A stretch of 64,000 nt of DNA from Desulfoglaeba alkanexedens ALDC (GTDB lineage Bacteria > Desulfobacterota > Syntrophobacteria > Syntrophobacterales > DSM-9756). Numbering within the stretch: position 1 is the first letter of the stretch; each line of letters starts with the position of its first letter. The stretch spans positions 2,287,501 through 2,351,500 of the forward strand of contig NZ_CP040098.1 of NCBI RefSeq assembly GCF_005377625.1. The letters are read 5' to 3'. This document shows positions 46,353 to 64,000 of this stretch, one piece after another. Under the pieces are notes generated by a model. That model made no database searches. It was not told the origin of the DNA and was given only the letters and a program-made list of their open reading frames with translations. A program made the position numbers and the translations under genes.

Positions 46353-46358
46353 GATGCA

Positions 46359-48190: not shown

Positions 48191-48394
48191 ATGCTCCGGC
48201 GCCTGTACGATTGGATGCGACTCCGGGCCGACCCCCCTACTCACACCATATACGCCCTGTTCATTCTGACCTTCTGCGAACCCTGCTGCTTTCCCATTTC
48301 TCTGGATGTGCTGGTCATCGGCCTGGCCGAGTTCACGCCGATTCCCTACAAGCCTTTCATCATTTTCAAGCCCGAGAAAGTTCTTGACTCCTAA
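48191..48394 (+). pseudogene. YqaA/VTT-type membrane protein with internal deletion
   Basis: The 67-codon frame begins MLRRLYDWMRLRADPPTHTI and continues FCEPCCFPISLDVLVIGLAE, like the start of YqaA-type VTT proteins. It then jumps to FTPIPYKPFIIF, which in that family lies far downstream. About 60-70 residues seem to be deleted in frame. It is probably non-functional. Confidence 0.6.
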
Positions 48395-48421
48395 GTAAGT
48401 TAGACCTATCTACCTGTCTAA
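48384..48421 (+). promoter_or_regulatory. Promoter with a 22-bp inverted repeat upstream of the uptake locus
   Basis: TTGACT (48384-48389) and TATCTA (48407-48412) are separated by 17 bp. The inverted repeat TTAGAC..GTCTAA (48400-48421) covers the -10 box. Its layout suits a repressor such as the DtxR-type protein encoded at 50247. Confidence 0.6.
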
Positions 48422-48504
48422 GGTACAGCAGATCCGCCGCCGTTGTCGATCTCAGCGGTCTCGGCGAAACTTTTCATCTTCCGGAGAAGAAAGGATTTTC
48501 AACA

Positions 48505-49743
48505 ATGGATACCTGCCGTGCGGATTCCGATGCCGTCCGTGGATGGTGGCCTCCGGGAACGAGTCTTCCGCTGATGCCAGCTCCCGAGAAGCCGGTGCTG
48601 GCACCGATTTGGCTATGGCCGCCTAACTGGCAATGCCCGATGCTAGGGGTGGGCTTGAGCATCGGCGAGCAGCGCCGAATCTTTAAGCGCCCCCAAAAGA
48701 CCCGTCGCATGGATGCCTACGACTTGCATCAGGCCTTGATGACGGCTGTCGGCGATGAAAACAAAATCTCCCGGCGGATCGATCGATTCCTGCAACGCAA
48801 GTTTCAACGCACGATCGCCGAGACCGCGTCCCTGCCTTGCGATGAATTCCTCGAGCGTTGGCGGCGCGAGTGGCGGGGCTCTCAGTGGCTCGGTCTCTTC
48901 TACGTGGCCGCCGCCCGTCAGGACTTGAGCGAAGAGACGCGCCGAAAAATCTATGGATGCATTCACATGGCCGGCCATCAGACGACCGGCGAACTGCTGG
49001 CGGCGCGCCGAGAGGTTGAACAACAGCGGCAGACCAATATTCACCTCGCCCGTGCCTTACGGCGCTTTCGCGAGAAGGAGCAAGAGCGGAAAAAGCATCG
49101 GCAGCGGCACCCGATGACGCCGCGGAACATCCGCCCACCCATTCCGGAAACGGCTCGGGCGGGTCATGCGCCGCCGCCGATCCCCGTCCCCGCCAACGGC
49201 ACCAGCCAGCTCCAGGCGGAAGTACACCGCCTGGAGCGTGAAAAGCAACACCTGGAAATTAAATACTTCGAGCTTCGGTCCCAAAACGCCCAATTGGCCG
49301 AAGATGTACGGGATCTCATGACCCAACTCGCCACCCTCCTGGCGCGCCGTCAGCGTTGCCGACGGGACGAACTACCGCAGGAGACGCCCGCCCCGGTATG
49401 CCCTCGGCGGATCCTGATCGTGGGCGGCATGACCAAATTGCAGCATCTTTATCGAGACTTGGTGGCAGCCGCCGGCGGGGAGTTGGATTACCACGACGGA
49501 TACCTGCGCCAGAGTACCGACAATCTCCAGGCGCGCATCGCCCGCAGCGATCTGGTGATCTGTCCGGTCAACTGCAACAGTCACAACGCCTGCAAGCGGG
49601 TCAAGGGCGTCTGCAAGCGGCTCAAAAAACCGTTGCAGCTGCTTCCATCGGCCAGCCTGAGCGCCATTGCCGCCGCCTTGCACGGCTCGGCCTCTCCGGA
49701 CGACGCTACGCTGCCGCCTGGTCGTCAAGACACTGCCAATTGA
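48505..49743 (+). CDS. DUF2325 domain protein
   Basis: This 412-aa protein has a family-typical N-terminal half with QCPMLGVGLSIGEQRR and HMAGHQTTGELL (conserved Cys and His that could bind metal), and a central coiled coil (about 230-285). Its C-terminal DUF2325 domain (from about 300) has RILIVGGMTKLQHLYRDLV and LVICPVNCNSHNACKRVK. The function of the family is unknown. It is the first gene after the inverted-repeat promoter and probably forms an operon with the STAS-like gene. Confidence 0.8.
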   Translation: MDTCRADSDAVRGWWPPGTSLPLMPAPEKPVLAPIWLWPPNWQCPMLGVGLSIGEQRRIFKRPQKTRRMDAYDLHQALMTAVGDENKISRRIDRFLQRKFQRTIAETASLPCDEFLERWRREWRGSQWLGLFYVAAARQDLSEETRRKIYGCIHMAGHQTTGELLAARREVEQQRQTNIHLARALRRFREKEQERKKHRQRHPMTPRNIRPPIPETARAGHAPPPIPVPANGTSQLQAEVHRLEREKQHLEIKYFELRSQNAQLAEDVRDLMTQLATLLARRQRCRRDELPQETPAPVCPRRILIVGGMTKLQHLYRDLVAAAGGELDYHDGYLRQSTDNLQARIARSDLVICPVNCNSHNACKRVKGVCKRLKKPLQLLPSASLSAIAAALHGSASPDDATLPPGRQDTAN

Positions 49744-49765
49744 CCACCGCAAGAGGAGCCCCTCC

Positions 49766-50143
49766 ATGAGCACAACCTTCAAACTGGCGACCGAACATCG
49801 TGGAGACGCGCTTTTCATCTTTCTGACAGGCGACTTTGACGGCGATTCCGCCTGGCAGCTGATTCATGCCCTAACCCGGGCGAGCGCCGATATCCGCCGG
49901 ATCACCGTTGACACGCATCGCATTCGCCGGGTGAAGCCGTTCGGCGCCGCCTTGTTCGGCAACTTGCTCAAGGGTAAACTGATTCACGGCGGCCGAATCT
50001 ATTTTGACGCCATCCCGGCCGCCAGAGCCAAGGCGGAAGGCCACCGGCTCTTAAGCGCCGCTGGGCAATACGGTATCAGCGGCGGGCGGATGCCGCAGCA
50101 CGGCTTCCATTCGATACGTCGGCAAGGAAGGAAACGCCAGTGA
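49766..50143 (+). CDS. STAS-like small protein
   Basis: This 125-aa protein has the strand-helix pattern of STAS/anti-sigma antagonist domains (GDALFIFLTGDFDGDSAWQL, DIRRITVDTHRIRRVKPFGA, FGNLLKG). The Ser/Thr normally phosphorylated in SpoIIAA proteins is not evident. AGGAG precedes ATG 49766. It lies 22 bp after the DUF2325 gene. Confidence 0.6.
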   Translation: MSTTFKLATEHRGDALFIFLTGDFDGDSAWQLIHALTRASADIRRITVDTHRIRRVKPFGAALFGNLLKGKLIHGGRIYFDAIPAARAKAEGHRLLSAAGQYGISGGRMPQHGFHSIRRQGRKRQ

Positions 50144-50177
50144 AATGACCTTTGTCGTTGTCACGACACATGGCGTC

Positions 50178-50206
50178 TTGACCTCACCCGCCAACCGGAT
50201 TAGAAA
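50178..50206 (+). promoter_or_regulatory. Promoter of the DtxR-family gene
   Basis: TTGACC (50178-50183) and TAGAAA (50201-50206) are separated by 17 bp, 41 bp before the start codon. Confidence 0.6.
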
Positions 50207-50246
50207 AATGTATCAAAAGTAAGCCCATCAAATTAAGGAGACGATC

Positions 50247-50816
50247 ATGGATCCATCCAAATCCGGCGGTGGACGTTCCCCCGGACCGCTGACTTCCGTG
50301 ATGGAAGACTACCTGGAGGCGATTTTCGACCTGGACCAAGCGCAGAAGGTGGTGAGAGTCAAGGACATCGCCCGCCGCATGGGGGTCAAGATGCCCACCG
50401 TGACCAGTATGCTTAAGACGCTGCATGATCGGGGACTGGTCCAGTACCGCAAGTATGAATACGTCGACCTCACCGCCGCGGGCCGGCGGGTGGGCAAGGA
50501 AATGCGCCGCCGTCACGGGCTGCTCGCCAACTTCCTCACCGGAATCCTCAAGGTCGACCCGGCCACCGCGGACGAAGAAGCCTGCCGCATGGAGCACAGC
50601 CTGAGTACCGACACGTTGGAAAGGCTGACCGACTTCATGCACTTCGTGTGCGACTGCCCCCGTGCCGGGGCCAACTGGCTCGAGCGTTTCGAGGAGTATC
50701 GCCGCCGGGGATCTCCGCCCGAGGACTGTCCCGAGCGGTCCGCCGTTTTCTCCGCTCAGTTGAAACAGCGTATAAACCGGGAAGATCCGAAAGACGTCAA
50801 CGACATTCAATCGTGA
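50247..50816 (+). CDS. DtxR/MntR-family metal-dependent transcriptional regulator
   Basis: This 189-aa protein has the N-terminal winged helix of DtxR-type iron or manganese regulators (MEDYLEAIFDLDQ, VRVKDIARRMGVKMPTVTSM). Its metal-binding and dimerisation domain includes EEACRMEHSLSTDTLERL, where Cys/Glu/His ligands are expected. There is no SH3-like third domain, as in MntR. AAGGAG precedes ATG 50247. It probably senses metal for the surrounding uptake genes. Confidence 0.9.
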   Translation: MDPSKSGGGRSPGPLTSVMEDYLEAIFDLDQAQKVVRVKDIARRMGVKMPTVTSMLKTLHDRGLVQYRKYEYVDLTAAGRRVGKEMRRRHGLLANFLTGILKVDPATADEEACRMEHSLSTDTLERLTDFMHFVCDCPRAGANWLERFEEYRRRGSPPEDCPERSAVFSAQLKQRINREDPKDVNDIQS

Positions 50817-50972
50817 CCGGGTACGGAGAGCATCCCTGAGGAAATGTCGTCCGCCGGCATCTTCTCCCGCCTCAGGGTTACGTGTCGATTTATTCCTTTG
50901 CAGCCCGAAAACCCGGCGGACGGCTTTCTTATACTTATGTTACGCTTTACTGACTTATTTGGGAGTCTAAAT

Positions 50973-51344
50973 ATGCCGACTGATTGCCGACAGTACACAG
51001 ATAACCTGTCCGACATGATTCAACCCGCTACCGTCGAGGGGGACAAGACCCGCCGCAACGAGCGCGCTGAAGTCCTGGCGGCCATCGCCGACAGTGTTGC
51101 CCGCCAGCAACGGGAAATCGAGCTGCAACAGAATCTGGTGGCTCTGGCACTGCGGAACTGCCCGCGATCCGGCGGATTATCGGCGCTGGCGGCCGACTGT
51201 CCCCTGCGTTCACGGGAAAAGCGACTCAGGGAAGCGATCCAGGAGGCCATCGAGGTGCTGGAATCCACCCGCCGGGCCTTCAAATCCAAGCAACTCGAAA
51301 TGTTACGCAAAAACCTGACGGCGGTATTGATCGAAACAGACTGA
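50973..51344 (+). CDS. Small helical protein of unknown function
   Basis: This 123-aa protein is largely helical with coiled-coil character (AAIADSVARQQREIELQQNL, LREAIQEAIEVLESTRRAF). ATG 50973 follows GGGAG; a frame beginning at 50844 is less likely. A strong terminator follows. I do not recognise the family. Confidence 0.55.
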   Translation: MPTDCRQYTDNLSDMIQPATVEGDKTRRNERAEVLAAIADSVARQQREIELQQNLVALALRNCPRSGGLSALAADCPLRSREKRLREAIQEAIEVLESTRRAFKSKQLEMLRKNLTAVLIETD

Positions 51345-51404
51345 GAGCAGGCGCGGCACGATCGTCTTACGGTTTCCACGCCCTTGGGGGTGGTGGAAAA
51401 AGTG

Positions 51405-51448
51405 AAGGCGAAATCCGATTCTCTGAGAAAACGGGTTTCGCCTTTTTT
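51405..51448 (+). terminator. Intrinsic terminator
   Basis: AAGGCGAAA (51405-51413) pairs with TTTCGCCTT (51436-51444), followed by a T tract. It ends the DtxR-side transcripts before the AraC-type gene. Confidence 0.88.
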
Positions 51449-51502
51449 GTGTTTTCAACAACGATCGGAGCGGAAAGGAGCCTTGCGTTGGAGCAGATTC
51501 CC

Positions 51503-52477
51503 ATGCAACGCGGGATGAAAGAGAACATCGAAAAGAAAACGGTCTGGAACTGGCCGGGCGGCGGAGTGGCCCTGCGTGTCTTCAGAAAAACCGAAAGCAG
51601 GCGATCCGATAACGACGCCGGCTATCCCGCCGGGACTTGTCGCATGGTCTTTTGCATCCAGGGATGCCTCCTGCTTTGTCCAAGCGACGATGACAGTCCG
51701 ACAGGATACCGAATCACTCCGGATCAAGCTGTTTTGTTCTACCATCCCCGACCACATGCGCCGCAGGATGATACTTCCCAATGTGCTCGGATGCTGTCAA
51801 TTCATTTTTCAGCGCGGCCCTTGCTTGAGTGGCTGGGCGACACCGATTTGGAAAGGCGGTTGAAGCGCGCCGTCGAAGCAAACCGGCCCCTGCGCGTGAT
51901 GAAATATCTCAACGCCGAGACGGTCGCGGCATTGGCGCGGGCCGTTGCTTTCATCGAGGGCGGCTGCGGCCCGAGTCTGCAGGCGATGATTGGCTTGTTG
52001 GAATTGGTCTGGCGGTTTGCCGGCAGCCCCGATCTGACAGTCGCCTCCGGCGTCCGCGATTCCGACCGGCACGCGCTGGCCGGAGTGTGCGCCACCTTGG
52101 AGCGCAACCTCGATCGTCCCCCGTCGCTCAAGGCGCTCGCCGCCCAGGCCGGTATGAGTGTCTCCAAACTCAAACTTCTCTTCCCGCAAGTCTACGGTAT
52201 AACGCCTTACGCCTATCTGCGCCGCTTGCGCATGCATAAGGCTTACACCCTGCTGACGACCAGCGGCATGAACGTCACCGAAGTCGCCCTGGAGGTGGGT
52301 TACAGCAGTCTGAGCCATTTTTCCCGAACTTTCGCCGAGTGCTACGGGGTGTTCCCCTCGCGGTTAAGGCTGTCGAAACCTTCAGCGGAAAGCGACTCAA
52401 TGAAACCCGACCGGCATCCAGCTGAATTCTATAGCTTTTCAGAAAAAATAATTTCGCATTCGGCCGCGAGGGAATGA
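51503..52477 (+). CDS. AraC-family transcriptional regulator (PchR-like)
   Basis: This 324-aa protein has an N-terminal ligand-binding half and a C-terminal AraC-type double helix-turn-helix (SLKALAAQAGMSVSKLKLLF; GMNVTEVALEVGYSSLSHFS, RTFAECYGVFPSRLR). The closest forms regulate siderophore or iron-chelate uptake with the ligand as co-inducer. ATG 51503 with GGAG upstream is chosen, because a frame from 51449 would start inside the terminator. It directly precedes the transport genes. Confidence 0.85.
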   Translation: MQRGMKENIEKKTVWNWPGGGVALRVFRKTESRRSDNDAGYPAGTCRMVFCIQGCLLLCPSDDDSPTGYRITPDQAVLFYHPRPHAPQDDTSQCARMLSIHFSARPLLEWLGDTDLERRLKRAVEANRPLRVMKYLNAETVAALARAVAFIEGGCGPSLQAMIGLLELVWRFAGSPDLTVASGVRDSDRHALAGVCATLERNLDRPPSLKALAAQAGMSVSKLKLLFPQVYGITPYAYLRRLRMHKAYTLLTTSGMNVTEVALEVGYSSLSHFSRTFAECYGVFPSRLRLSKPSAESDSMKPDRHPAEFYSFSEKIISHSAARE

Positions 52478-52521
52478 TCGGGACAAATTGGCTTTGCGGG
52501 ATAATTTTATGGCTTCTCGGG

Positions 52522-52535
52522 TTAGACAACTCTAA
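52522..52535 (+). promoter_or_regulatory. Short inverted repeat upstream of the binding-protein gene
   Basis: TTAGA-CAAC-TCTAA is a palindrome sharing the GTTAGAC core with the inverted repeat at 48400-48421. A -10-like TAATAT starts at 52533; the -35 is poor, which fits an activated promoter. Confidence 0.4.
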
Positions 52536-52683
52536 TATAGTTCGATACTTTTTCCTTCCTGATGCTGGTGGAAGCGCGCGGCGATTCCCGCCACGCCATG
52601 TTCCGGCCCACAAAAGGAACAACGTTGTGGACAAGGCCAAAAACGATACCTCTCGGAGGCGTAAGCAGGAAAGGGCTGTTTTC

Positions 52684-53688
52684 ATGCACGTAAAAAGACA
52701 TCCTCAGTCGTACCGAAAATCCCTGTCGCGCTCGGCGGCCCTGTGCGGGTTGGTCGCAGCGCTCGTCGCGCTGTCAACCCATTCGGCCATGGCCGGGTGC
52801 GCCGCGCCGGCCTTGGAACGGTCGTCGCTGGTGGTGATCGGCGATCCAATCGCCGCCGTCTGCTACCGGCTGGGCGTGGCGCCGCTGGCCTGGGTGGGGC
52901 GCCGCTCGCTGATGGAAAACGGCGACGTGCTGGCCGCCGCCTCCGAAACTCTCGGCTGTCCCAATGCCTTCTGCGGTCCGCGGCAGGAGATGGCCCTGAA
53001 GCGGATCGTCGAACTGGCGCCCGAAAAACTCCTCATCACTCCGCCCGACTGCAAGTACCGGCCTGACCTGTCCTATGAAAAACCGCTGAAGCTGCTCAAG
53101 GAAGCCGGTTTTCAACCGGTATTCATCGATTTTGCCGGCGGACCGGAGCCGGCGGTGCGGCGGATCGCGGCGGCCCTCGATCGCGCCGAAGAAGGCGAGC
53201 GGCTGGTCCAGACCTACGAGAAGGGCATGCGGCGCGCCCGGAATTTCATGGCCCGGGTTCCGGCCGGCCTGCGCCTGGCGGTGGTTGCGGGGACCTTCCA
53301 GGAGGCCACGGGCAAGTCCTTTCTACGCCTTGAGGCGGCCGGCGGTTATTCGGACGATTTTCTGCTCAAGCCGCTCAGGGCGGTCAACGTGGCCGCCGAT
53401 ATCACGGGCCCAGACGTGAAAATCGAAAAGGGGCACATCGCCTTGCGCAGTCTGGAAAAGGTGCTGGAAGCCCGTCCGGACGCCATCGCCGTGACCGGGG
53501 ACCCGCTGCCTGTTTTCCGGGCCATGGCCGAAACGCTGGCCCATCGTCCGGACTTGGCCACGGTGCCGGCGGCCAGGCAGTTCGCCGTTTATCCACTGCC
53601 ATTCTACGCCGGAACCGATCCGTTGGCCTACCCCGAGGTGTTGACCCGCTGGGCGCTGGCCCTGGCGCCGTTTGAACCCGCCAAATGA
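52684..53688 (+). CDS. Periplasmic binding protein (iron chelate / cobalamin type)
   Basis: This 334-aa protein has a signal peptide (SAALCGLVAALVALSTHSAMA) and a periplasmic binding protein fold of the Peripla_BP_2 type used for ferric siderophores, heme and cobalamin (LVVIGDPIAAVCYRLGVAPL; RIVELAPEKLLITP; LKLLKEAGFQPVFID). It has several cysteines in the N-terminal lobe (CPNAFCGP), unusual for this class. No ABC permease or ATPase gene is in the window, so it may work with distant genes or directly with the TonB system. Confidence 0.8.
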   Translation: MHVKRHPQSYRKSLSRSAALCGLVAALVALSTHSAMAGCAAPALERSSLVVIGDPIAAVCYRLGVAPLAWVGRRSLMENGDVLAAASETLGCPNAFCGPRQEMALKRIVELAPEKLLITPPDCKYRPDLSYEKPLKLLKEAGFQPVFIDFAGGPEPAVRRIAAALDRAEEGERLVQTYEKGMRRARNFMARVPAGLRLAVVAGTFQEATGKSFLRLEAAGGYSDDFLLKPLRAVNVAADITGPDVKIEKGHIALRSLEKVLEARPDAIAVTGDPLPVFRAMAETLAHRPDLATVPAARQFAVYPLPFYAGTDPLAYPEVLTRWALALAPFEPAK

Positions 53689-53698
53689 CGGAGGAACG

Positions 53699-54484
53699 AT
53701 GACGCTCCGCCGCATCCAAGTCAAGAGGGTTTGCTCCGTCGGCCTTCTGTTCGGTCTGCTGTTGGTTCCGCGGCCGGTCGGGGCCGCCGAAACCGGGGAC
53801 CGGGTCCGGCAGACCGTCGAGCAAACCATTGATGTCATGCAAAAAGCGCAGCAGCAGGAAGACGCCTGGGCCGGACAGAGGGCCGACCTGCTGGCCCGGT
53901 TTCAATCCCTGCAAGCCGAAAAGAAGCGCCTCGAGCGCACCCGCGAAGGGCTGGAACAGCGCCTTGCCTTCGAAGAAAAGGCGTTGCTCGAGGGCCGGCG
54001 AAAAGCCGAAGGCGCGCGATGGATCGAACACGAGCTGCAGGGTTATCTCGAATCCGTCGTGGCGCGCCTGGAGGAATTCATCCGGAAAGACCTGCCCTTT
54101 CTGCCGGCGGAAAGATCGCAGCGCATCGCATCCGTGAAGGAATGCCTCATGCGGCCGGATTCCGGCGTCGCGGAAAAGTACCGCCGGGTCATGGAGGCGC
54201 TGCAGATCGAGGCCGATTACGGCCGCAGCGCCGAGGTGGTTCAGGACCGTGTGGTCATCGACGGCAAGCCGCTGATGGTGGATATCCTGAGGCTGGGGCG
54301 GATCGCCGTCTTCTGGCGCACCCCGGACGGAAGCCGGGCGGGCCATTTCGATCCGGCCACGGGAGAATATGAACCGCTGGATTCCCGATACCATCGCGAA
54401 ATCGAGAAAGCGATGCAGATCGCACGCCGGGAGCGCACCACGGATCTGGTCCGGCTGCCGCTGGGGAGGATTGTCGTCCAATGA
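53699..54484 (+). CDS. DUF3450 protein of the TonB2/TtpC system
   Basis: This 261-aa protein has a signal peptide (GLLFGLLLVPRPVGAAE), a coiled coil (about 45-105, LQAEKKRLERTREGLEQRLA) and a beta-rich C-terminal region (ADYGRSAEVVQDRVVIDGKP). It matches DUF3450, found next to ExbB/TtpC genes in Vibrio-type TonB2 clusters. It probably sits in the periplasm and helps couple the proton channel to TonB. It overlaps the next gene by 4 bp. Confidence 0.85.
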   Translation: MTLRRIQVKRVCSVGLLFGLLLVPRPVGAAETGDRVRQTVEQTIDVMQKAQQQEDAWAGQRADLLARFQSLQAEKKRLERTREGLEQRLAFEEKALLEGRRKAEGARWIEHELQGYLESVVARLEEFIRKDLPFLPAERSQRIASVKECLMRPDSGVAEKYRRVMEALQIEADYGRSAEVVQDRVVIDGKPLMVDILRLGRIAVFWRTPDGSRAGHFDPATGEYEPLDSRYHREIEKAMQIARRERTTDLVRLPLGRIVVQ

Positions 54485-55974
54485 ACGGACAAAACGGTGG
54501 GGCGACGAAACGCGCCAGGGGATGCAAGGCATCAAGCGTCCGGCGTTACGCTGTAGCGGGAACGCTGGCGCTGGTGGGCCTGTGGCTTTGCACCGGACCG
54601 GTTGCGGCTGAGGACATGCGCGCCGCCTTGCAAAAGGCCAAGGCGCGCTACGAGGCCGCCCTGGCGGAAGCCCGCGAGAGCCAGAAACGCATCACCGAGG
54701 ACCGCCGGCTCCTCGAGCGGGAAGTCGCGCTTCTGGAGGGCCAGGTCGCCGCGCTCAAGGCGGACATCGACGCCGGCAACGCCCGCATCGAGGCCCTGGC
54801 CCGGGAGCGGGCGGCGTTTTCCGAGCGGCAGTCGGAAGATGAATCGGCCCTGCGGGAACTGACCGGCTCCATGCGGGTGGTGGCCCGCGACCTGGAAACC
54901 ACCCTGGCCCAGTCGCTGCTGACCGCTCTGGCACCGCAACGCCTCGACGCTTTGAAGTCGATGCTGGACAAGGACCATTTCCCGGGTCTCGACGATGCGA
55001 AAATCATGAGCGATCTGCTCTTCGAGGAAATGGCCTTTTCCGGCGAGGTGGCGCTGCGCAAGGGAAGTTTCATCGGTCGCAACGGCAACGAAACGCAGGG
55101 CGATATCTTGACCATCGGTAAGTTCACGGCGGCCTACAGGGCTGATGCGGAGGTGGGCTTTCTGAACTATTCGGAAGAAAACCACCGGTTTTTCGCGCTT
55201 TCGTCGCTCCCGCCATGGTCGATCGGCCGCAATCTCAAGGCCTATATGCAGGGGGATACGGATGAGGTCACCCTCGATATTTCGGACGGCGCCGCGCTGA
55301 AGCAGATCACCCATACCAACACCCTCATGGACCAGATCCGCAGCGGCGGCCTGCTGGTCTGGCCCATTCTGGCCATCGGCGTCTTTGCGATTCTCATCGC
55401 GGTGGAGCGGGTGTTTTTCCTCAAGGGGGTCCATGACAACACCGACGGGGTGATGGGCCGGGTCAACGACCTGGCGATGCAGGGCCGTTGGGAGGAGTGC
55501 GACGCCGTCGTCAAACAGAAAAAAGGGCGGCCGGTTTACGACGTCCTGGAGGCGGGGCTGTGCGCCCGGGGAGAAGATCGCGAAACGCTGGAGAGCATTC
55601 TTCAGGAGGCGATCCTGAAGGAACTCCCCCGGCTGGAACGGTTTCTGCCCATGCTCAACATGATGGGCGCCATCGCTCCGTTGCTGGGGCTGTTGGGCAC
55701 GGTGACCGGCATGATCACCACGTTTCACGTCATTACGCTGTACGGCACGGGGGACCCGCGCATGTTGTCCGGCGGCATCTCCGAGGCCCTGGTAACGACG
55801 ATGCTGGGCCTTTCCGTGGCCATTCCCATCATGCTCACCCACACCTTCCTGAGCCGGCGCGTCGAGCATGTGGTGGGCGACATGGAGGAAAAGGCCGTGG
55901 CGCTGACGAACATCATCTACCGGCAAACGGTTGTGGCGGAGCGCCGGGCTGTTTCCTGCGGCGTTCCCAATTAG
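54481..55974 (+). CDS. TtpC-like MotA/TolQ/ExbB proton-channel protein with periplasmic extension
   Basis: This 497-aa protein has a signal peptide, a long periplasmic coiled coil (about 45-140) and a DUF3450-like middle. Its C-terminal MotA/TolQ/ExbB domain has membrane helices at about 286-310 and in PLLGLLGTVTGMITTFHVI. This is the form of Vibrio TtpC, which is needed for TonB2-dependent uptake. It overlaps the DUF3450 gene and is followed by exbB. Confidence 0.9.
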   Translation: MNGQNGGATKRARGCKASSVRRYAVAGTLALVGLWLCTGPVAAEDMRAALQKAKARYEAALAEARESQKRITEDRRLLEREVALLEGQVAALKADIDAGNARIEALARERAAFSERQSEDESALRELTGSMRVVARDLETTLAQSLLTALAPQRLDALKSMLDKDHFPGLDDAKIMSDLLFEEMAFSGEVALRKGSFIGRNGNETQGDILTIGKFTAAYRADAEVGFLNYSEENHRFFALSSLPPWSIGRNLKAYMQGDTDEVTLDISDGAALKQITHTNTLMDQIRSGGLLVWPILAIGVFAILIAVERVFFLKGVHDNTDGVMGRVNDLAMQGRWEECDAVVKQKKGRPVYDVLEAGLCARGEDRETLESILQEAILKELPRLERFLPMLNMMGAIAPLLGLLGTVTGMITTFHVITLYGTGDPRMLSGGISEALVTTMLGLSVAIPIMLTHTFLSRRVEHVVGDMEEKAVALTNIIYRQTVVAERRAVSCGVPN

Positions 55975-56000: not shown

Positions 56001-56591
56001 ATGGACTTTGTGGCCCAAGTCTACGCGTACCTTCAACCGGGCGGGATCGTCATGTTCCCGCTGGTGATTTCCTCCGTGTGCATGTGGGTGCTCATCATCG
56101 ACCGGGTCCTTTACTACCGCCAACTGGGCCGGGATGATATCCCGCTGCGGCAGGCCGTGGGGATGCTTGCGGCAAAAGCGGCGCCGGCCGGCGCCACCGG
56201 GCTCAGGGCCGGTGTGGTGACAGCCTTTCTTGCGGAGCGCACCGGAGACCGGGACCTTGACAAGAAGATCCTTGACCGCTGCGCCATGCGGGCCAGGCCG
56301 TCGATCCGCAGGGCCCTGGCGCTCATCGCCACCCTGGCCGCCGTGGCGCCCCTCTTCGGACTTTTGGGGACGGTAACCGGCATGATCACCACCTTCGACG
56401 TGATCGCCCTGTTCGGCACCGGCAACCCGAAAGCCATGGCCGGAGGCATTTCCGAAGCCCTGATCACCACCCAAAGCGGTCTGACGGCCGCCATTCCGGG
56501 GCTCTTCATGAGCACCTATCTCATGCGGCGCGCCGGCCGGCTGGAAGGCCGGCTCGACGAAACGGTCGCCGTGCTCAAGAGGCATCTATGA
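56001..56591 (+). CDS. exbB: Biopolymer transport protein ExbB (TonB2 type)
   Basis: This 196-aa protein has three membrane helices, with the channel motif APLFGLLGTVTGMITTFDVI and the ALITTQSGLTAAIPGLF helix of ExbB/TolQ. GAGG lies six bases before ATG 56001. Its end overlaps exbD by 4 bp. Confidence 0.92.
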   Translation: MDFVAQVYAYLQPGGIVMFPLVISSVCMWVLIIDRVLYYRQLGRDDIPLRQAVGMLAAKAAPAGATGLRAGVVTAFLAERTGDRDLDKKILDRCAMRARPSIRRALALIATLAAVAPLFGLLGTVTGMITTFDVIALFGTGNPKAMAGGISEALITTQSGLTAAIPGLFMSTYLMRRAGRLEGRLDETVAVLKRHL

Positions 56592-57010
56592 TCAACGTTC
56601 GCCAATCCATCCGGGGGAGCCAAAAAACCGCCGAGATCAACATGGCGCCGCTCATCGACCTCGTGTTTCTGCTGCTGATTTTCTTTCTGGTCACCACGAG
56701 CTTTGTCAAGGAGACCGGCATCGACGTGGAGCGGCCCCGGGCGTCGACGGCGACCCTGAAGGAGGCGGGCAACATCCTGGTGGGAATCTCCGCCGAGGGC
56801 AGGGTCTTTCTCGATTCAAAGGAGGTCGATGTGCGGAGCGTCCGTGCCCATATCGAACGGTGTCTGGCGGAAAATCCCGAGGGTGCCGTGGTCATCGTCG
56901 CCGACAAGCAGAGCATCACGGACATGGTGATCCGAGTGATGGATCAATGCCGGCTGGCCGGAGCCCGTAACGTGAGCATCGCCGCTTCGTGCTCCGATGC
57001 CGAGGGATAA
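56588..57010 (+). CDS. exbD: Biopolymer transport protein ExbD (TonB2 type)
   Basis: This 140-aa protein has one membrane helix starting NMAPLIDLVFLLLIFFLV, with the essential Asp at residue 24, and a periplasmic domain ending VMDQCRLAGARNVSIA. It stops immediately before tonB. Confidence 0.93.
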   Translation: MINVRQSIRGSQKTAEINMAPLIDLVFLLLIFFLVTTSFVKETGIDVERPRASTATLKEAGNILVGISAEGRVFLDSKEVDVRSVRAHIERCLAENPEGAVVIVADKQSITDMVIRVMDQCRLAGARNVSIAASCSDAEG

Positions 57011-57718
57011 ATGGACGCGAGGACTTTCCGCAGAGCCTGGATCGCCGTGTCGGGCGCGCTGCTGGTCAATGCCTTTTTGCTGGCAATGCTTCCTTGGCCC
57101 GTGAGGCAGAAGTGCGTCAAACCGGATCTGGAGGTGGTCATGCCGGTGCATCTGGTGCAGATCCGGCATACGAAGCCAGCGCCTGCCGGACCGGAGGAAC
57201 CGCCGCCGGAGCAAAAGGAAGCGCCGAAGGCCCCGGAAGAGATTCCCGCTGCTTTACCTGACGTTTCGATCCGCCGGCCGGTGCCGGATACATCGCGGAT
57301 GAGCCTGGAGGTTCCCTCGCTGAACTTCGAAATCAATGCGAACCTCGCCGGAGGGGTGGCAGTGGCGCCGCCGCCGGCGGCGGTCGGCCCTACCGTTTTT
57401 GCATCGGCGGCGGCCAAGGCCATCTGGGACCAGGGCGAAGTGGATCAGGTGCCGGTGCCCGTGTCGCAGGTAAAGCCGCTGTATCCGTACCGCGCCCGGC
57501 GGCTGCAGTTGGACGGAAAGGTCAGGGTGCGGTTTCTCGTCAAGGAAGACGGACAGGTGAGCGGGCTCGAAATCGTGGAATCAGTTCCGCCCGGCGTCTT
57601 CGACGACAGCGTGCGCAGCGCGTTGGCCAAGTGGAGATTTTCTCCCGGGAAAGTCAACGGCAAACCGGTTTGCACCCGGGTTGCCACTACGATCGAATTC
57701 AAGTTCGAGGATGAGTGA
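57011..57718 (+). CDS. tonB: TonB energy transducer
   Basis: This 235-aa protein has an N-terminal anchor (about 10-28), a Pro/Glu-rich span (APAGPEEPPPEQKEAPKAPE) across the periplasm and a C-terminal TonB domain (VKPLYPYRARRLQLDGKVRV; VESVPPGVFDDSVRSALAKW). It transmits proton-motive energy to outer-membrane receptors such as that at 59556. It overlaps the TPR gene. Confidence 0.92.
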   Translation: MDARTFRRAWIAVSGALLVNAFLLAMLPWPVRQKCVKPDLEVVMPVHLVQIRHTKPAPAGPEEPPPEQKEAPKAPEEIPAALPDVSIRRPVPDTSRMSLEVPSLNFEINANLAGGVAVAPPPAAVGPTVFASAAAKAIWDQGEVDQVPVPVSQVKPLYPYRARRLQLDGKVRVRFLVKEDGQVSGLEIVESVPPGVFDDSVRSALAKWRFSPGKVNGKPVCTRVATTIEFKFEDE

Positions 57719-58953
57719 TGAAAACGAGATCGCCGCAAGAAAAAGACCGCCCTACCGCGTTTGCCGCCGCTGAAGCCGGATGGAAAATGTTCGGCCCTTG
57801 CGCCCTGGTGGCGGCGATGATGGTGTGGGCCGCTGGATCGCCGCTGGCCGCCGACCAGGGCGGCGACCTGCCGCAGGCGGTGCAGAGGGTGGTCTACGAA
57901 GCCCAGCAGGACATGACGGCCGGGAAGTACGCCGAGGCCGAAAAGAAGCTGTTGGCCTACGAGCGTTCGCATCCGGACGCCCCGCACTACCTGGTGGCCT
58001 TCACTCTGGGAAATGTTCTTTCGTACCAGGGCAAGAACCAGGCGGCGCTGGAGCGGTACCGCGCCTGCGCCGAGTTGAATCCGGGATTCGGACCCGTCTG
58101 GCAAAACCTCGGCAAGACCTGTTTCGACCTCAAGCAATACCCCCGGGCCGGAGAATATTTCTTCAAGGCTTGGCAGACCAGTGAGACGAAAGACCCGAAG
58201 CTCCACTACCATGCCGCCGTGGCCTGGATGCTGGCCGGCGAGAACCAGAAGGCCCTGGCGCATCTGGAATACCTGGTTTCGGGGGATGCGGGGCGGCCCG
58301 AGAAGCAATGGATCGAGGCGCTGCTGAAGGTCAGCCTGGACCTCGGCCGCGACGACAAGGCCGTCGAGGCCGTACGCAGTCTGCTGGCGAAGGAAGAAAA
58401 CCAGCCACGCTGGTGGAAGCTGTTGGCTCAGCTTCACGCGCGGCGACAGGAGTACCGTAAGGCCGTGAGCGCTTTTGAAGTCTACGCATTGCTGGTCCCC
58501 GCGCTCGGTCGTGAGGATGCGATCCTGATGGGTGACCTGTACAGCGCCATCCACATTCCCCTCAAGGCAGCCCAATATTATCGCAGCGCCCTGGCGATGC
58601 AGGACTGCCCCAAGCTGCGCAAGAAGCTGGCGGCGGCCTGGCTGGCCGCCCACCGTCCGGACGAGGCCCGCGAAACGATGCTCGCCGGACCGGAGCCGCT
58701 CTCCTGCCCCCGGATCTGGTTGGCCCTGGGCCGGACCTATTACGATCGGGGTGACTGGGAAAAGGCCCTGGATGCTTTTTCCCGTAGCGCCCGTCTCGCA
58801 CCCGAGGACGGTCGGGCGCACCTGATGCTGGGGCACTGCGCCCTGCAACTGCAGAAGAAGCAAATCGCCGTCGCGGCCCTGCGCAAGGCCTGCGAGTTCA
58901 AGGAATACCGGCGGCAGGCCGGCCGGCTGCTCGAAGCCACGGCCGCGCTCTGA
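57718..58953 (+). CDS. TPR protein of the TonB2 cluster
   Basis: This 411-aa protein has a signal-like hydrophobic N-terminus (CALVAAMMVWAAGSPLAA) and tetratricopeptide repeats through the rest (AGKYAEAEKKLLAYERSHPD; QAALERYRACAELNPGFGPV; GDWEKALDAFSRSARLAPED). TPR proteins regularly end TtpC-type TonB2 operons and may scaffold the periplasmic complex. ATG 57718 overlaps the tonB stop. Confidence 0.88.
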   Translation: MKTRSPQEKDRPTAFAAAEAGWKMFGPCALVAAMMVWAAGSPLAADQGGDLPQAVQRVVYEAQQDMTAGKYAEAEKKLLAYERSHPDAPHYLVAFTLGNVLSYQGKNQAALERYRACAELNPGFGPVWQNLGKTCFDLKQYPRAGEYFFKAWQTSETKDPKLHYHAAVAWMLAGENQKALAHLEYLVSGDAGRPEKQWIEALLKVSLDLGRDDKAVEAVRSLLAKEENQPRWWKLLAQLHARRQEYRKAVSAFEVYALLVPALGREDAILMGDLYSAIHIPLKAAQYYRSALAMQDCPKLRKKLAAAWLAAHRPDEARETMLAGPEPLSCPRIWLALGRTYYDRGDWEKALDAFSRSARLAPEDGRAHLMLGHCALQLQKKQIAVAALRKACEFKEYRRQAGRLLEATAAL

Positions 58954-59277
58954 TCAGAGCAATTTTACCAGAGTGGCGATCAAGGCGGCCTGAGCAATGA
59001 GCATTCCCGCTACCCAACGAATGATGCTTGCCTTAGATTCAGCAATCTCTTTTCTTAGCTCGGCCCTTAGCAACTCAATATCTTTTTTGAGTTCGGCACG
59101 TACCGATTCAATATATTTCGTAAGATTGCTTTCGGTGGTTTTCAGGTCAGTTGTAGTAGCCAGATTTTCTTCGATGGTCTCCCGGAAGACCTCGGCAATC
59201 TCCTTTGCGCATGCCTCCGGGAGTCCGGCAGATTTAAGGCGATTGTAAATGCTTAAGGTATCAATAGTGCGCAGCAT
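58954..59277 (-). CDS. Coiled-coil membrane-anchored small protein (DUF1640-like)
   Basis: This 107-aa protein has a helical N-terminus (LKSAGLPEACAKEIAEVFRE), a coiled coil with repeated heptads (RAELKKDIELLRAELRKEI) and a C-terminal membrane helix (WVAGMLIAQAALIATLVKLL). This matches DUF1640/CCDC90-type proteins. Its stop codon abuts that of the TPR gene on the opposite strand. It is AT-richer than the TonB2 genes. Confidence 0.78.
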   Translation of the reverse strand: MLRTIDTLSIYNRLKSAGLPEACAKEIAEVFRETIEENLATTTDLKTTESNLTKYIESVRAELKKDIELLRAELRKEIAESKASIIRWVAGMLIAQAALIATLVKLL

Positions 59278-59555
59278 GTTATAGATCTTTTTTTGATTTC
59301 TCCAGCGAAACAGCCGCCGGATAAGAGATTTAGATGCTAACTAACATAGTGATGTTCCATTGTCAATACTTAGCTTTAGGTACAGGCCATGTGTATATCA
59401 TTTGTGTAAAAGGCAAAGGCCGCGCATCCGGCAAAGAGTAAAACCGCTTTTCCCACGGAAGGAGGCTCCGTTTGCAGAGAAATCTCCTCACGGGGCCGCC
59501 CCTCGGTTTTTTTTATCAAGGCCGGGGGTCATTGTCAATTCAGGAGAAAAGAGAA
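59278..59555 (+). promoter_or_regulatory. Leader region of the TonB-dependent receptor
   Basis: A hairpin with arms GGGG/CCCC and a T8 tract lies at 59491-59514, 42 bp before the start codon. Upstream are ACGGA..TCCGT (about 59455-59471) and TTAGATGCTAA (59330-59340), whose TTAG/CTAA arms recall the 48400 repeat. A conditional terminator is possible. No cobalamin riboswitch core was recognised. Confidence 0.45.
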
Positions 59556-61442
59556 ATGAAACAATTTAAACTCGTATTATGTATATTAACTTTCATTCTT
59601 CCATTTAGCTTTTTTGCACAGGCGCAGGAGGTAAAAGAGCTTGGGAAAATCGTGGTTACGGCCACAATGACAGAAAAGGAGATTGAGAAAGCCCCCGGCT
59701 CCATTGAGGTAATTACCTCTCAGGAGATAAAGGACATAAACGCCCAGACTATAGCCGAGACATTGGAGATAGCCACCGGACTTATTGTTTCAGATGAGAG
59801 CGGAAGAGTAAAGGGACTCAGTATACGTGGCACGGGAAACAAACGTGCTCTGGTATTGATTGATGGAAGAAGATTTTCTTTAGGTTACAAGGATTCTGTT
59901 GATCTAAAACAGATTCCCATTGATATGATCGAGCGTATCGAAGTGGTCAGAGGCCCGACCTCCGCGCTTTACGGAAGCGATGCGATAGGGGGTGTTGTAA
60001 ATATCATTACTAAAAAACCGCCAAAAGAGTTCGCAATGGGGGCTACTTTTCAATATGGTATGGATACCTATGGAGAAGGTGAGGAACCGATTGTCAGGGG
60101 TTATCTTGGGGATACATTAGGACGTTTTGGATTCCTCTTTGCCGGAAGTTACCTGGATAAAAATGAATGGGATAGAGATGGCATAATCCCTGACGATGGA
60201 GATGACGAAGATCTTGGTTCGATAAACGGACGTTTATCTTTCGAACTGACTGAGCATCAGAAACTCCTTGCAGGATTTGAATATAGTGAACTGGATAGAG
60301 AAGGGCTTAGATTTTATGAAGGTCTTGACAGGGAAAGAATAGCCGAGGACACGAGACAAAGCTATTTCTTGCAATACAATGCCAGGCCGAATCCCCTTTT
60401 TAATTTTGAGCTCAGGGCCTATCACTCCGGACATGAAGATGATGTAAAGTTCTCACCCTTTGCGGAAACCACTCCCGAGGAAGATGCAGAACGTAAGCTG
60501 GATCAGGTAGAAGGTCGTTTCACGGGCGTTCTTTTTGAGAAACATATATTCACCGCGGGTTCGGAATTTAGAAAGGAGGAAATAGATATTGACACAGGTA
60601 GTGAGGATATAGATAATTTTAGTATCTATCTGCAGGATGAATATCAGATTTTTGACCCCTTATATCTGGTTCTGGGCGTCAGATTTGATGAACATTCCGA
60701 ATTTGGATCGGAATGGACCCCCCGTTGTTCGTTAATATACAAAATCCTTCAAAATCTTAGATTCAAAGCGTCTTATGGGACCGGTTTTCGCGCCCCCGGT
60801 CTCTCCGAACTTTATGTTACTTCCATGAGACAGAGAGGAAAGAAGGTTTATGAATCTAATCCGGATTTAGATGCAGAGACATCAGAGAGCTATGAAGTCG
60901 CCATCGAAGGAGAATATAAAAAGTCATGGGGTAGGATTACCGCCTTTAGAAATGAGATAGAGGATTTGATCGAACCTGTCTGGTATAAATCAACAGGCAA
61001 AGGCAAAAATAAGAAAGACTATTACAGATACGAAAACGTTTCTGAGGCTACTACGCAAGGCGTGGAGCTGGAATGCGGCTTAAACCTTCCTCTGGGCTTT
61101 TCTTTCTCAGGGAATATGGCCTACCTGGATACAGAAAACGAAGACACTGATAAGGATTTGGAAGGGGAGCCGAAATATAAAGGACATCTGCAATTGGGTT
61201 ATCGATATCCTGAATTTGGACTTCGGGCTAATGTCCGAATGGATTACATCGGCGAACGCTACTATGCAGAGGGAACAGAAGGTGGCTATAGCCTTTTTCA
61301 CTGCTTCCTATCCAAAGAAATTTCTCAGTACATGGAGGTGTTTGCCGGGGTCAATAATATCTTCGACAAAAGAGAGGAGAAGGACGAAGTCGTATACGTG
61401 GAGCCGACGTATTTCTATGGCGGCCTGTCCATAAAATTTTGA
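59556..61442 (+). CDS. TonB-dependent outer-membrane receptor
   Basis: This 628-aa protein has a signal peptide (ILTFILPFSFFAQA-QE), a TonB-box-like start (ELGKIVVTATM), a plug domain (GLSIRGTGNKRALVLIDGRR; ERIEVVRGPTSALYGSDAIG) and a 22-strand-type barrel ending with Phe (GGLSIKF). The size and plug resemble CirA/BtuB/FepA-like receptors; the ligand is not determinable. It is AT-richer than the TonB2 genes, suggesting a different origin. AGGAG precedes ATG 59556. Confidence 0.93.
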   Translation: MKQFKLVLCILTFILPFSFFAQAQEVKELGKIVVTATMTEKEIEKAPGSIEVITSQEIKDINAQTIAETLEIATGLIVSDESGRVKGLSIRGTGNKRALVLIDGRRFSLGYKDSVDLKQIPIDMIERIEVVRGPTSALYGSDAIGGVVNIITKKPPKEFAMGATFQYGMDTYGEGEEPIVRGYLGDTLGRFGFLFAGSYLDKNEWDRDGIIPDDGDDEDLGSINGRLSFELTEHQKLLAGFEYSELDREGLRFYEGLDRERIAEDTRQSYFLQYNARPNPLFNFELRAYHSGHEDDVKFSPFAETTPEEDAERKLDQVEGRFTGVLFEKHIFTAGSEFRKEEIDIDTGSEDIDNFSIYLQDEYQIFDPLYLVLGVRFDEHSEFGSEWTPRCSLIYKILQNLRFKASYGTGFRAPGLSELYVTSMRQRGKKVYESNPDLDAETSESYEVAIEGEYKKSWGRITAFRNEIEDLIEPVWYKSTGKGKNKKDYYRYENVSEATTQGVELECGLNLPLGFSFSGNMAYLDTENEDTDKDLEGEPKYKGHLQLGYRYPEFGLRANVRMDYIGERYYAEGTEGGYSLFHCFLSKEISQYMEVFAGVNNIFDKREEKDEVVYVEPTYFYGGLSIKF

Positions 61443-61472
61443 TCGAAAGAACGGAAAGCATAGGAAATAAAG

Positions 61473-62369
61473 ATGATTATCTCGAAAAAACGTGCGCGCG
61501 CAGTGCTTTCAACAACGCTGACCACCCTGTGCTGCTGGACTATTCTGTCCGTTTTCGCGGTCGCGGGGCAAACCGCAGGCCTCGGCCGTTTCTGCCTGGT
61601 GAGCCTCGGCTGCGGCGATCCGGACAACATCACGCTCAAGGCGGTCAAGACGATCAAGGCCTCCGACATCCTCTTCTGCTCGGAGCAAATGAAAGCCGCC
61701 CATCCGGAGCTGATCGCCGGCAAGCAGATCTATCCGCTGCCGAGTCTGAAAATCCACAAACACTTTCAGGCGTTGAAGGCCGGCTTTTTCCAGGGCGCCA
61801 AGGCCGGGAAGGCCAAGGACCCGGAGATCGAAAGGAAGATCGAAGAATTCAGGCGCATCGTCACCGAGGCCGTTCAGGCCGGCAAGAACGTATCGCTGCT
61901 CGATTACGGCGATCCGTGCATCTACGGTCCGTACATCTGGACCATGCAGGTGCTCAAAGATCTCGATCCACTCATCGTGCCGGGCATCAGCAGCTTCAAC
62001 GCCGCCAACGCCGCTTTGAGAACAGGCGTCACCTTCGGCTTCGAGGCGCACTCGGCCGTTTTGACCAACGCCGCCGACCTGAAGGAAGGCTACGACGGGG
62101 CCGACACCATCGAGCGGATGGCCGCCACCCGGTCCTCCATGGTGATTTTCACCATGTTCGTGGAGCTCGATGAATTGGTTGAAAAGCTCTCCCGCCACTA
62201 TCCCGCCGACACTCCGGTGGCCATCGTGGTCAAGGCCGGTTACGAAAAGGAACAGAAGATCATCCGCGGAACGCTCAAGGACATCGTGCAGATCGCGGCC
62301 AAAGAGGGAGATATTTCTTTCGAGCACCTGATCTACGTCGGCGATTTTCTAAATGGCCAGGCCGCATGA
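61473..62369 (+). CDS. Tetrapyrrole methylase-family protein with signal peptide
   Basis: This 298-aa protein has an N-terminal export signal (KKRAR, then a hydrophobic run ending SVFAVAGQTAG) directly followed by a tetrapyrrole (corrin/porphyrin) methylase domain. The domain has LVSLGCGDPDNITLKAVKTI at the first loop, LDYGDPCIYGPY at the SAM-site motif and VPGISSFNAANAAL. Members methylate cobalamin or siroheme precursors in the cytoplasm with SAM, so an exported form is unexpected. It may bind rather than modify a tetrapyrrole, or remain membrane-anchored facing the cytoplasm. It follows the receptor by 30 bp and overlaps the permease by 4 bp. Confidence 0.85.
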   Translation: MIISKKRARAVLSTTLTTLCCWTILSVFAVAGQTAGLGRFCLVSLGCGDPDNITLKAVKTIKASDILFCSEQMKAAHPELIAGKQIYPLPSLKIHKHFQALKAGFFQGAKAGKAKDPEIERKIEEFRRIVTEAVQAGKNVSLLDYGDPCIYGPYIWTMQVLKDLDPLIVPGISSFNAANAALRTGVTFGFEAHSAVLTNAADLKEGYDGADTIERMAATRSSMVIFTMFVELDELVEKLSRHYPADTPVAIVVKAGYEKEQKIIRGTLKDIVQIAAKEGDISFEHLIYVGDFLNGQAA

Positions 62370-63811
62370 TGCACCACGACGGCAGCGGTGAGCTGAAACG
62401 CGAGATCGGCCCTTTTTCCGCCGTGAATCTGGTGATCGCCAACATGGTGGGCACGGGGATCTTTACCACCTCCGGGTTCATGATGCAGGCGCTTGGCGAT
62501 CCGGGCGCCATGCTGCTGTGCTGGCTGGCCGGCGGGCTGTTCGCCCTTTCCGGAGCCCTCTGCTACGCGGAGCTGGGCGCTAGGTTCCCCAGAGCCGGCG
62601 GGGAGTATGTCTTCCTGAGGGAAAGCTTCGGCTCCGCCACCGCCTTTCTCTCCGGCTGGATCTCGCTGGTGGTGGGGTTCTCGGCGCCCATCGCCGCCGC
62701 GGCCATCGCCTTTGCCACCTATCTGCTGCGGGTCCTGCCGGCGGGCGGCATCCCAGCCGGTGCTCCGGGCGCGATGCCGCTTTCCGCGGTTTCGCTGACG
62801 GCCTCGGCGGCCATCGTGCTGCTGACCCTGGCTCATACCCGCAGCCTACGGCTGGGCAAAGGCGTCCAGAACCTGTTGACCCTCTTCAAGGTCGGCTTCA
62901 TCGTCTGCTTCATCTGCTTGGGCATCTGGAAGGGAGAAGGCTCGGCCGCCCATTTCGCCTCCGGCGACATCACGGGCAAACTCTTGGATGCGCGTTTCGC
63001 CGTGGCCATGATCTTTGTTTCCTTTTCCTTTAGCGGATGGAATGCGGCCGCCTACATCGGCGGTGAAATCCGCAATCCCCGGCGCAACATCCCTTTGGCG
63101 CTGATCGCCGGCACGTCCATCGTCATCTGCCTGTACCTGCTGCTCAACGGCGTTTATGTCTGGGCGCTGTCTCCGGCGGAAATGTCCGGGATCGTTGATA
63201 TCGGCGCCGCCGCGGCCGCCGCCCTGTTCGGAGACGCCGTGGGCCGGTATCTGAGCGCCGCTATCGCAGTCGGTCTGCTGTCCACCCTGAGCGCCATGAT
63301 CGTTACCGGCCCGCGGGTTTACTACTCGATGGCCAAAGACGGCATGTTCTTTCGCCTCTTCGGCAAAATCGATGCCCGGCACCAGACCCCCGGCAGGGCG
63401 GTCTGCCTGCAAGCCGGCCTTGCCGTCTTCATGGTGCTGACGGCCTCCTTCGAACGGCTCCTGCTGTACATCGGATTCACCCTGTCGCTGTTTTCCATGC
63501 TGGCCGTGGTCGGCATGATCAAGCTGCGACTGACAAACCCTGGCCGTGTGCCGAGCTACCAGACCCCGGGCTACCCGGTGACGCCGCTTGTTTTCATCGC
63601 CGGCAACCTTTGGATCATCGGCTATTCGATCCTCACCCGCCCGGTGGCCGCGCTCTGGGCGCTGACCACCATCGCCGCCGGGATGCTGGTCTTTTGGCAG
63701 TTTCGCAGACAAGACGCGCAAGACGGGACCGCGCCGGAGGTCACCTGGATCGGAGAAGCTGCGCCGTCCAGCCCGGCGATGCCGGAACCGAAACCGCGAA
63801 GCAGATTCTGA
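62366..63811 (+). CDS. APC-superfamily permease
   Basis: This 481-aa protein has about twelve membrane helices. The first contains the substrate-binding GTGIF motif (ANMVGTGIFTTSG), typical of the APC amino acid/polyamine transporters, and helix 6 starts FSFSGWNAAAYIGGE. The hydrophilic C-terminal tail is short. It overlaps the methylase gene by 4 bp, so the two are co-translated. The substrate is unknown. Confidence 0.9.
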   Translation: MMHHDGSGELKREIGPFSAVNLVIANMVGTGIFTTSGFMMQALGDPGAMLLCWLAGGLFALSGALCYAELGARFPRAGGEYVFLRESFGSATAFLSGWISLVVGFSAPIAAAAIAFATYLLRVLPAGGIPAGAPGAMPLSAVSLTASAAIVLLTLAHTRSLRLGKGVQNLLTLFKVGFIVCFICLGIWKGEGSAAHFASGDITGKLLDARFAVAMIFVSFSFSGWNAAAYIGGEIRNPRRNIPLALIAGTSIVICLYLLLNGVYVWALSPAEMSGIVDIGAAAAAALFGDAVGRYLSAAIAVGLLSTLSAMIVTGPRVYYSMAKDGMFFRLFGKIDARHQTPGRAVCLQAGLAVFMVLTASFERLLLYIGFTLSLFSMLAVVGMIKLRLTNPGRVPSYQTPGYPVTPLVFIAGNLWIIGYSILTRPVAALWALTTIAAGMLVFWQFRRQDAQDGTAPEVTWIGEAAPSSPAMPEPKPRSRF

Positions 63812-63837
63812 AAGAGATCTTCATGGAGGCGTCGTAT

Positions 63838-64000
63838 ATGGATCAGATCGCAAGAGGATTGTACCACGGGGCCATGCTCCTGTATCTGTATGGGTTTGCA
63901 TGGCTGTGCGCTGCAAACGACCCGATCCGCCGGAGTCGCGCGACCTGGATCTTCTGGTCCGCGCTGGCCGTTCTCACAGTTGCGGTCATACTCTACGCCG
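63838..64000 (+). CDS. Membrane protein, partial (runs off the window)
   Basis: The frame starts MDQIARGLYHGAMLLYLYGF after GGAGG and continues to the end of the window without a stop. Two hydrophobic segments are visible (GAMLLYLYGFAWLCA; WIFWSALAVLTVAVILYA). It lies 26 bp after the permease and probably belongs to the same operon. At least 54 residues are present; the family cannot be named. Confidence 0.65.
   Translation, partial: MDQIARGLYHGAMLLYLYGFAWLCAANDPIRRSRATWIFWSALAVLTVAVILYA

Follow-up and report, generated by a model that had tools for sequence, protein, structure and literature searches.

An exported CbiF-like methylase and an APC permease adjoin TonB-dependent metal receptors in Desulfoglaeba alkanexedens and other bacteria

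A 64,000-nucleotide stretch of the Desulfoglaeba alkanexedens ALDC genome (the window; C1:2287501-2351500 of the single-contig, 3.37 Mb genome G000) ends within a TonB-dependent uptake locus in which a receptor gene is followed by genes for an exported methylase related to CbiF and for an APC permease. This exported methylase-APC pair beside metal receptors is apparently undescribed. In the literature on a periplasmic tetrapyrrole methylase with a TonB receptor, or on precorrin-4, nickel and an amino-acid permease, the combination was not found described, although an earlier mention is possible. Cable bacteria carry the same cassette (L097 and L105, where L-numbers denote loci of relatives or stretches read beyond the window), and a nickel survey of these organisms makes no mention of a methyltransferase or methylase (PMC11247825). 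In lineages ranging from Desulfobacterota to purple sulfur and cable bacteria, a member of the B12-methylase family that is exported has been conserved together with a metal receptor and an amino-acid-type carrier; Planctomycetota also have it, but lack the carrier.

The exported methylase

The best curated family for the window methylase is CobM/CbiF, with a TIGR01465 score of 116.9 bits against an equivalog cut-off of 259.65. The protein has the TP_methylase fold and the SAM (S-adenosylmethionine) motifs of that family, and the top Foldseek match of its AlphaFold model (mean pLDDT 74.6) is to precorrin-4 methyltransferases (E 5e-16). All groups of the clade, and both halves of tandem forms, retain the motifs GDP, PG and AG found in CbiF, and the methylase is likely to bind SAM as judged from these sequences. 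While it resembles the precorrin-4 C11-methyltransferase CbiF/CobM in fold and SAM motifs, it differs in being exported, in scoring far under the equivalog cut-off, in standing outside any cobalamin operon and in the residues K84, P153 and N176, which are family-specific. A cobalamin-type enzyme sent to the periplasm of a sulfate reducer has a parallel in CbiK-P, the periplasmic cobaltochelatase of Desulfovibrio. However, CbiK-P is a chelatase with a different fold, and we know of no APC partner for it.

A search of species genomes recovered 79 methylase loci in Desulfobacterota, Gamma- and Betaproteobacteria, Planctomycetota, cable bacteria and others. Judged by eye, most of the clade carries a Sec signal peptide, and several members have a lipobox (VMGCAAS in L086, TIGCTTP in L094, VAGCAKA in L116). 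A fusion in L036 puts an exported DUF4198 domain, which bears the N-terminal signal peptide, ahead of the methylase. Because of these signal peptides, the lipoboxes and the DUF4198-methylase fusion, a predicted position of the clade outside the cytoplasm is well supported.

Some variant arrangements were seen around the methylase. At L187:7318-9084 and L188:6985-8823, an exported protein joining an Oxidored_molyb domain to a C-terminal methylase is encoded between the receptor and APC genes. Exported nucleoside hydrolases, which might act on SAM or S-adenosylhomocysteine (SAH) products, adjoin the exported methylase at L043:10249-11739 (fused to FmdE), L184:5345-6490 and L048:10894-12393. Exported FmdE-domain proteins also recur in L040, L045, L054, L057 and L068. 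In Halomonas, Marinobacter and Marinobacterium (L110, L117 and L121, near 9932-10738), cytosolic methylases of the clade overlap an MFS exporter gene, and in two of the three a gene that looks MerR-like lies upstream.

Association of the methylase with the APC permease

The stop codon of the methylase gene and the start codon of the APC gene overlap as ATGA, which suggests translational coupling of the two. The permease scores 180.7 bits with AA_permease_2 (cut-off 27) and reaches no subfamily cut-off; it retains GTGIF, a motif of amino-acid carriers, and its PDB matches are LAT-type carriers. Among 395 Desulfobacterota genomes the methylase occurs in 40, the APC subfamily (profile score >= 440 bits) in 41 and both in 30, with an odds ratio of 94 and a Fisher p of 2e-27 that overstates independence, the genomes being related. 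The two genes lie within ~1-2 kb of each other in ~25 of the 395, mostly on the same strand. The grouping of permease and methylase in an earlier, sequence-only reading of the window therefore recurs far above chance.

The same reading had placed the permease where an ABC (ATP-binding cassette) importer would be expected. This part did not survive, and a role as pure replacement of an ABC importer was rejected, since NikM, NikQ or FeoB stands beside the APC gene in several loci. Because NikM adjoins it in L055 and L116, and FeoB follows here, a separate inner-membrane metal importer is indicated.

Organisation and conservation of the locus

All genes named in the sequence-only reading were recovered in place by profile matches. 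DNA past position 64000 was read as far as purM (stretch L002). The conserved gene set was borne out, but on gene content the locus is composed of two modules, a left one at 48.5-58.9 kb and a right one running from 59.5 to ~68.6 kb, beyond the window end, and the cluster as a whole reaches ~83 kb. The genes are as follows, in window coordinates.

48505-49743: DUF2325 protein
49766-50143: STAS_2-like protein, weak match
50247-50816, + strand: DtxR-family metal-dependent repressor (Pfam Fe_dep_repress 6e-21, Fe_dep_repr_C 6e-20)
51449-52477, + strand: AraC-type regulator (HTH_18 6e-24)
52684-53688, + strand: exported binding protein, Peripla_BP_2 (Pfam 1.7e-06)
53702-54484, + strand: DUF3450 coiled-coil protein (Pfam 1e-68)
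54481-55974, + strand: TtpC, DUF3450-MotA/ExbB fusion (Pfam 2.3e-34 and 1.1e-10)
56001-56591, + strand: ExbB2 (Pfam MotA_ExbB 1.2e-26)
56588-57010, + strand: ExbD2 (Pfam ExbD 2.7e-31)
57011-57718, + strand: TonB2 (Pfam TonB_C 5e-20)
57715-58953, + strand: TPR protein of the TonB2 module (TPR families)
59472-61442, + strand: TonB-dependent receptor 1 (Plug 1.9e-28, beta-barrel 2.1e-54)
61473-62369, + strand: exported CbiF-like methylase, Sec signal peptide (TP_methylase 4.4e-41)
62366-63811, + strand: APC (LAT-like) permease (AA_permease_2 6e-53)
63820-64617 (in window to 64000), + strand: CcsA-like membrane protein (weak Cytochrom_C_asm)
64624-65595, beyond window, + strand: ResB-like protein
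65944-66771, beyond window, + strand: first DUF4198 protein (DUF4198 match)
66816-68630 (L002:3316-5130), beyond window, + strand: receptor 2 (receptor match)
70106-72580, beyond window, + strand: FeoB (FeoB match)
72600-72920, beyond window, + strand: NikL-like protein (NikL family 2.8e-16)
73073-73870, beyond window, + strand: second DUF4198 protein (DUF4198 match)

The left module has the core order AraC, binding protein, DUF3450, TtpC, ExbB, ExbD, TonB, TPR. With the DUF3450-ExbB fusion (TtpC) and ExbB, ExbD, TonB and TPR in one operon, it belongs, by its genes, to an established type: a TonB2-TtpC energiser that has a binding protein and is flanked by AraC and DtxR genes. In D. vulgaris, exbB, exbD and tonB lie in a cluster described as Fur-regulated whose first gene is foxR, of AraC type (PMC545781). 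The DUF3450-TtpC-ExbB-ExbD-TonB-TPR order with AraC ahead is like that of TonB2-TtpC modules of the Vibrio/Shewanella type and of the foxR cluster. In contrast to these relatives, a DtxR gene stands ahead here and a receptor-methylase-APC cassette follows, where L195 has a FecCD permease and neighbours. The gene order of the left module recurs in L194-L198, with DUF3450 syntenic throughout, and a DtxR homologue adjoins the TonB2 module in L194. TtpC and TPR are syntenic in these five loci as well as in L086 and L091.

The right module comprises receptor 1, the exported CbiF-like methylase, the APC permease, the CcsA/ResB-like proteins, DUF4198 and receptor 2. The Desulfatitalea loci L086 and L091 have the two modules end to end, in the order TtpC-ExbB-ExbD-TonB-TPR-receptor-methylase-DUF4198-APC, so that the gene set is syntenic in relatives. 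L035 and the Chromatiaceae loci L065 and L095 have ExbB-ExbD-TonB next to receptor-methylase-APC, and the same cassette order is found in Gammaproteobacteria and Thermodesulfobacterium. Close homologues of receptor 1 adjoin the methylase in L046, L068 and L071. L046 has in common with the present locus receptor 1, the methylase, FeoB, a P-type ATPase, FeoA and a MamC-like protein. Like the present locus, L187 has CcsA/ResB-like genes next to the cassette, and L188 has a CcsA-like gene; Peripla_BP_2 homologues adjoin the methylase in L045, L046 and L080, fused in L046 to a COX1-like membrane domain. One possible use of these recurring heme-type membrane proteins is to reduce the metal before its release. 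DUF2325, the STAS-like protein and hyp166, counted in the set by the sequence-only reading, are present, but a general link to the cluster is not supported: weak matches to STAS and hyp166 were found in L045 only, and DUF2325 in L102 only.

No ABC permease or ATPase lies between the window end and purM, so that the ABC components sought immediately downstream are absent. At the locus the binding protein has no FecCD permease or ATPase, unlike FecBCD/BtuFCD-type importers. Elsewhere in G000 there are five FecCD permeases above cut-off and one CbiM (C1:2977370). An ABC transporter encoded away from the locus is therefore a possible partner for the binding protein at 52684.

The transported metal

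DUF4198 is a secreted nickel binder with a Kd of 18 nM through its N-terminal His, and is found near TonB receptors and NikR (PMC12537917). The first DUF4198 protein of the locus matches PDB entries 9mhi-9mho, which appear to be the structures of that paper. Both DUF4198 proteins have a predicted mature N-terminal His, and the NikL-like protein has a His directly after its predicted cleavage site; all three are candidate histidine-terminated metal carriers. NikL-like genes occur in 17 cassettes, and NikM or NikQ in L055, L059 and L116, with NikM beside APC in L055 and L116 and NikQ present in L059 and L116.

A site scan was performed with the published deltaproteobacterial NikR signal (PMC545781). 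The palindrome GTRTTAC-N13-GTAAYAC closely precedes the methylase operon in 9/15 Planctomycetota loci, eight found by the automatic scan and the ninth (L079) by eye, where 0.7% would be expected per locus at 2 mismatches. A NikR gene is present in 11/13 of those Planctomycetota genomes. Outside Planctomycetota, including the Desulfobacterota cassettes, NikR sites were not above chance.

The arrangement is like that of NikKLMQO with a TonB receptor, in that DUF4198 and NikL-like periplasmic proteins stand by the receptor and NikM and NikQ are the last genes of some cassettes; we take NikK to be DUF4198. It is unlike NikKLMQO in its added exported methylase and APC permease, and here in having FeoB instead of NikMQO and a genome without NikR; NikM, NikQ and NikO are absent from the window and L002. 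In L046, L068 and L071, as in the present locus, FeoB adjoins the cassette. On these gene contexts, iron is the likely metal in G000, and nickel or cobalt that of certain other lineages.

Riboswitches were considered as a further clue to the substrate, but none of the NiCo, cobalamin or other classes was found near the cassette; the window, L002 and 22 cassette loci were all without a cobalamin riboswitch. The metal-tetrapyrrole ligand suggested in the sequence-only reading thus stays a possible but unproven one, with no cobalamin riboswitch and a methylase far under the CobM/CbiF cut-off.

A proposed mechanism and its alternatives

From gene content, synteny, the export signals of the methylase, its co-occurrence with the permease, the Planctomycetota NikR-type sites and the change of importer by lineage, all read from sequence, we infer chelate entry through the receptors, ligand modification, metal release in the periplasm, a substrate for the permease and iron as the metal in G000. 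The TonB2/TtpC module would energise the receptors, which would carry a metal chelate into the periplasm. There the exported CbiF-like, probably SAM-binding methylase may alter the ligand or its complex. The released metal could be held by the histidine-terminated carriers, DUF4198 and NikL-like, before the free ion crosses to the cytoplasm, here most likely as Fe2+ via FeoB and in other lineages as Ni2+/Co2+ via NikMQO. That the free ion, rather than the complex, crosses the inner membrane is suggested because receptor and methylase are constant across lineages whose importers differ. The permease, coupled to the methylase, most likely carries an amino-acid-type small molecule for it, SAM/SAH exchange being our favoured guess. 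Yeast has APC-type SAM permeases, Sam3 and Mmp1, so that SAM as an APC substrate has precedent.

We rate the general proposal, in which TonB-imported chelates are altered or dismantled in the periplasm, the ion enters via FeoB or NikMQO and the permease serves the methylase, as evenly balanced between right and wrong. Its narrower form is decidedly tentative: SAM-dependent periplasmic methylation of imported metallophores or metallotetrapyrroles, with a dedicated APC SAM/SAH exchanger, inactivating the chelate and freeing the metal before ion import. If the methylase works on SAM, periplasmic methylation and a bacterial SAM carrier become testable. The proposal also offers a possible answer for TonB systems without an ABC importer, with the ion freed outside the inner membrane and entering via FeoB or NikMQO.

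Several observations weigh against this proposal. The presence of SAM in the periplasm is putative. The APC subfamily occurs without the methylase in 11 genomes, in unrelated surroundings. Conversely, exported methylases lack it in Planctomycetota (APC in 0/12 loci with room) and at 18/54 other loci; a strict requirement of the methylase for the permease was therefore rejected. Planctomycetota genomes of the methylase loci hold no APC subfamily member above 350 bits, and their upstream gene was rejected as a stand-in permease, being a DUF1559-like pilin-type protein by its look. In Beta- and Gammaproteobacteria, APC accompanies 7/7 exported methylases with enough downstream sequence and 0/9 cytosolic ones, a contrast that is suggestive only, since the cytosolic group is nested in the exported clade and the difference amounts to one change on the tree; as proof of SAM supply it was rejected. 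Finally, the nickel link comes from relatives only, because G000 has no NikR gene and no NikR-type site nearer than 4 mismatches by the cassette genes.

The permease may instead import the ligand itself for reuse, either as a metal-amino-acid chelate or as an amino-acid-like ligand after metal release, with no supply to the methylase. The GTGIF motif and LAT-type PDB matches are in keeping with such a role, as is the Chromatiaceae cassette, which has a dedicated ExbB-ExbD-TonB and no other permease adjoining. However, other metal importers adjoin APC in several cassettes, and in Beta- and Gammaproteobacteria APC goes with an exported methylase without any DUF4198; we regard ligand import as a doubtful alternative. 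In intact metal-tetrapyrrole uptake, the receptors would import heme, a corrinoid or a nickel porphyrin, to be bound or trimmed in the periplasm by the CbiF-fold protein and handled at the inner membrane by the CcsA/ResB-like pair. CbiF is the closest family and fold of the methylase, the CcsA/ResB-like genes and the COX1-like domain fused to the L046 binding protein would fit, and the profiles that score receptor 1 highest are those for B12, CirA-type and hemin. Considering that receptor and methylase scores are far under curated cut-offs, that the cobalamin riboswitch is absent and that nickel regulation and nickel ECF (energy-coupling factor) genes indicate a metal ion, this route is unlikely. 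A chance gathering, in which a stray methylase and a housekeeping amino-acid permease happen to lie beside a receptor, could account for the receptor GC3 (third-codon-position GC) sharply unlike that of methylase and APC genes, and for APC members found alone. It appears very improbable, being already contradicted by synteny: the methylase-APC adjacency spans many families in Desulfobacterota, and the order is shared with Gammaproteobacteria and Thermodesulfobacterium.

Receptors and flanking regions

Receptor 1 probably starts at an ATG near 59556. It scores 241.9 bits against the BtuB cut-off of 599.7 (TIGR01779), with no riboswitch upstream, and no conserved palindrome was found upstream of the receptor. 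GC3 is 0.42 in receptor 1 and 0.48 in receptor 2, against 0.71 +- 0.08 for window genes, and is typical in the methylase and APC genes; both receptor genes may have been replaced recently. The idea that the whole right-hand block arrived together by horizontal transfer was rejected, since only the two receptor genes and one short open reading frame on the reverse strand account for the GC drop.

Further to the right, 74066-82532 (L002:10566-19032) holds two heavy-metal P-type ATPases (CPC motif in one, SCA in the other), an HMA_2 protein, MamC-like and other small proteins, which are encoded between the two ATPases, and tandem FeoA. The group looks like a ferrosome-type iron storage cluster from its gene content, and a similar set lies near the methylase in L046.

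To the left of the cluster, window 47862-48152 is a 291-bp copy of the purM 3' end, 95.2% identical to the matching part (83126-83416; L002:19626-19916) of the intact purM at the right edge. The 35 kb enclosed by the two may be an inserted island, in which no integrase was seen. A duplicated cdaA-ybbR gene adjoins the purM remnant (window 46204-47785); its inverted second copy lies ~155 kb away at G000:C1:2179075-2180655, with 98.9% identity over 1582 bp.

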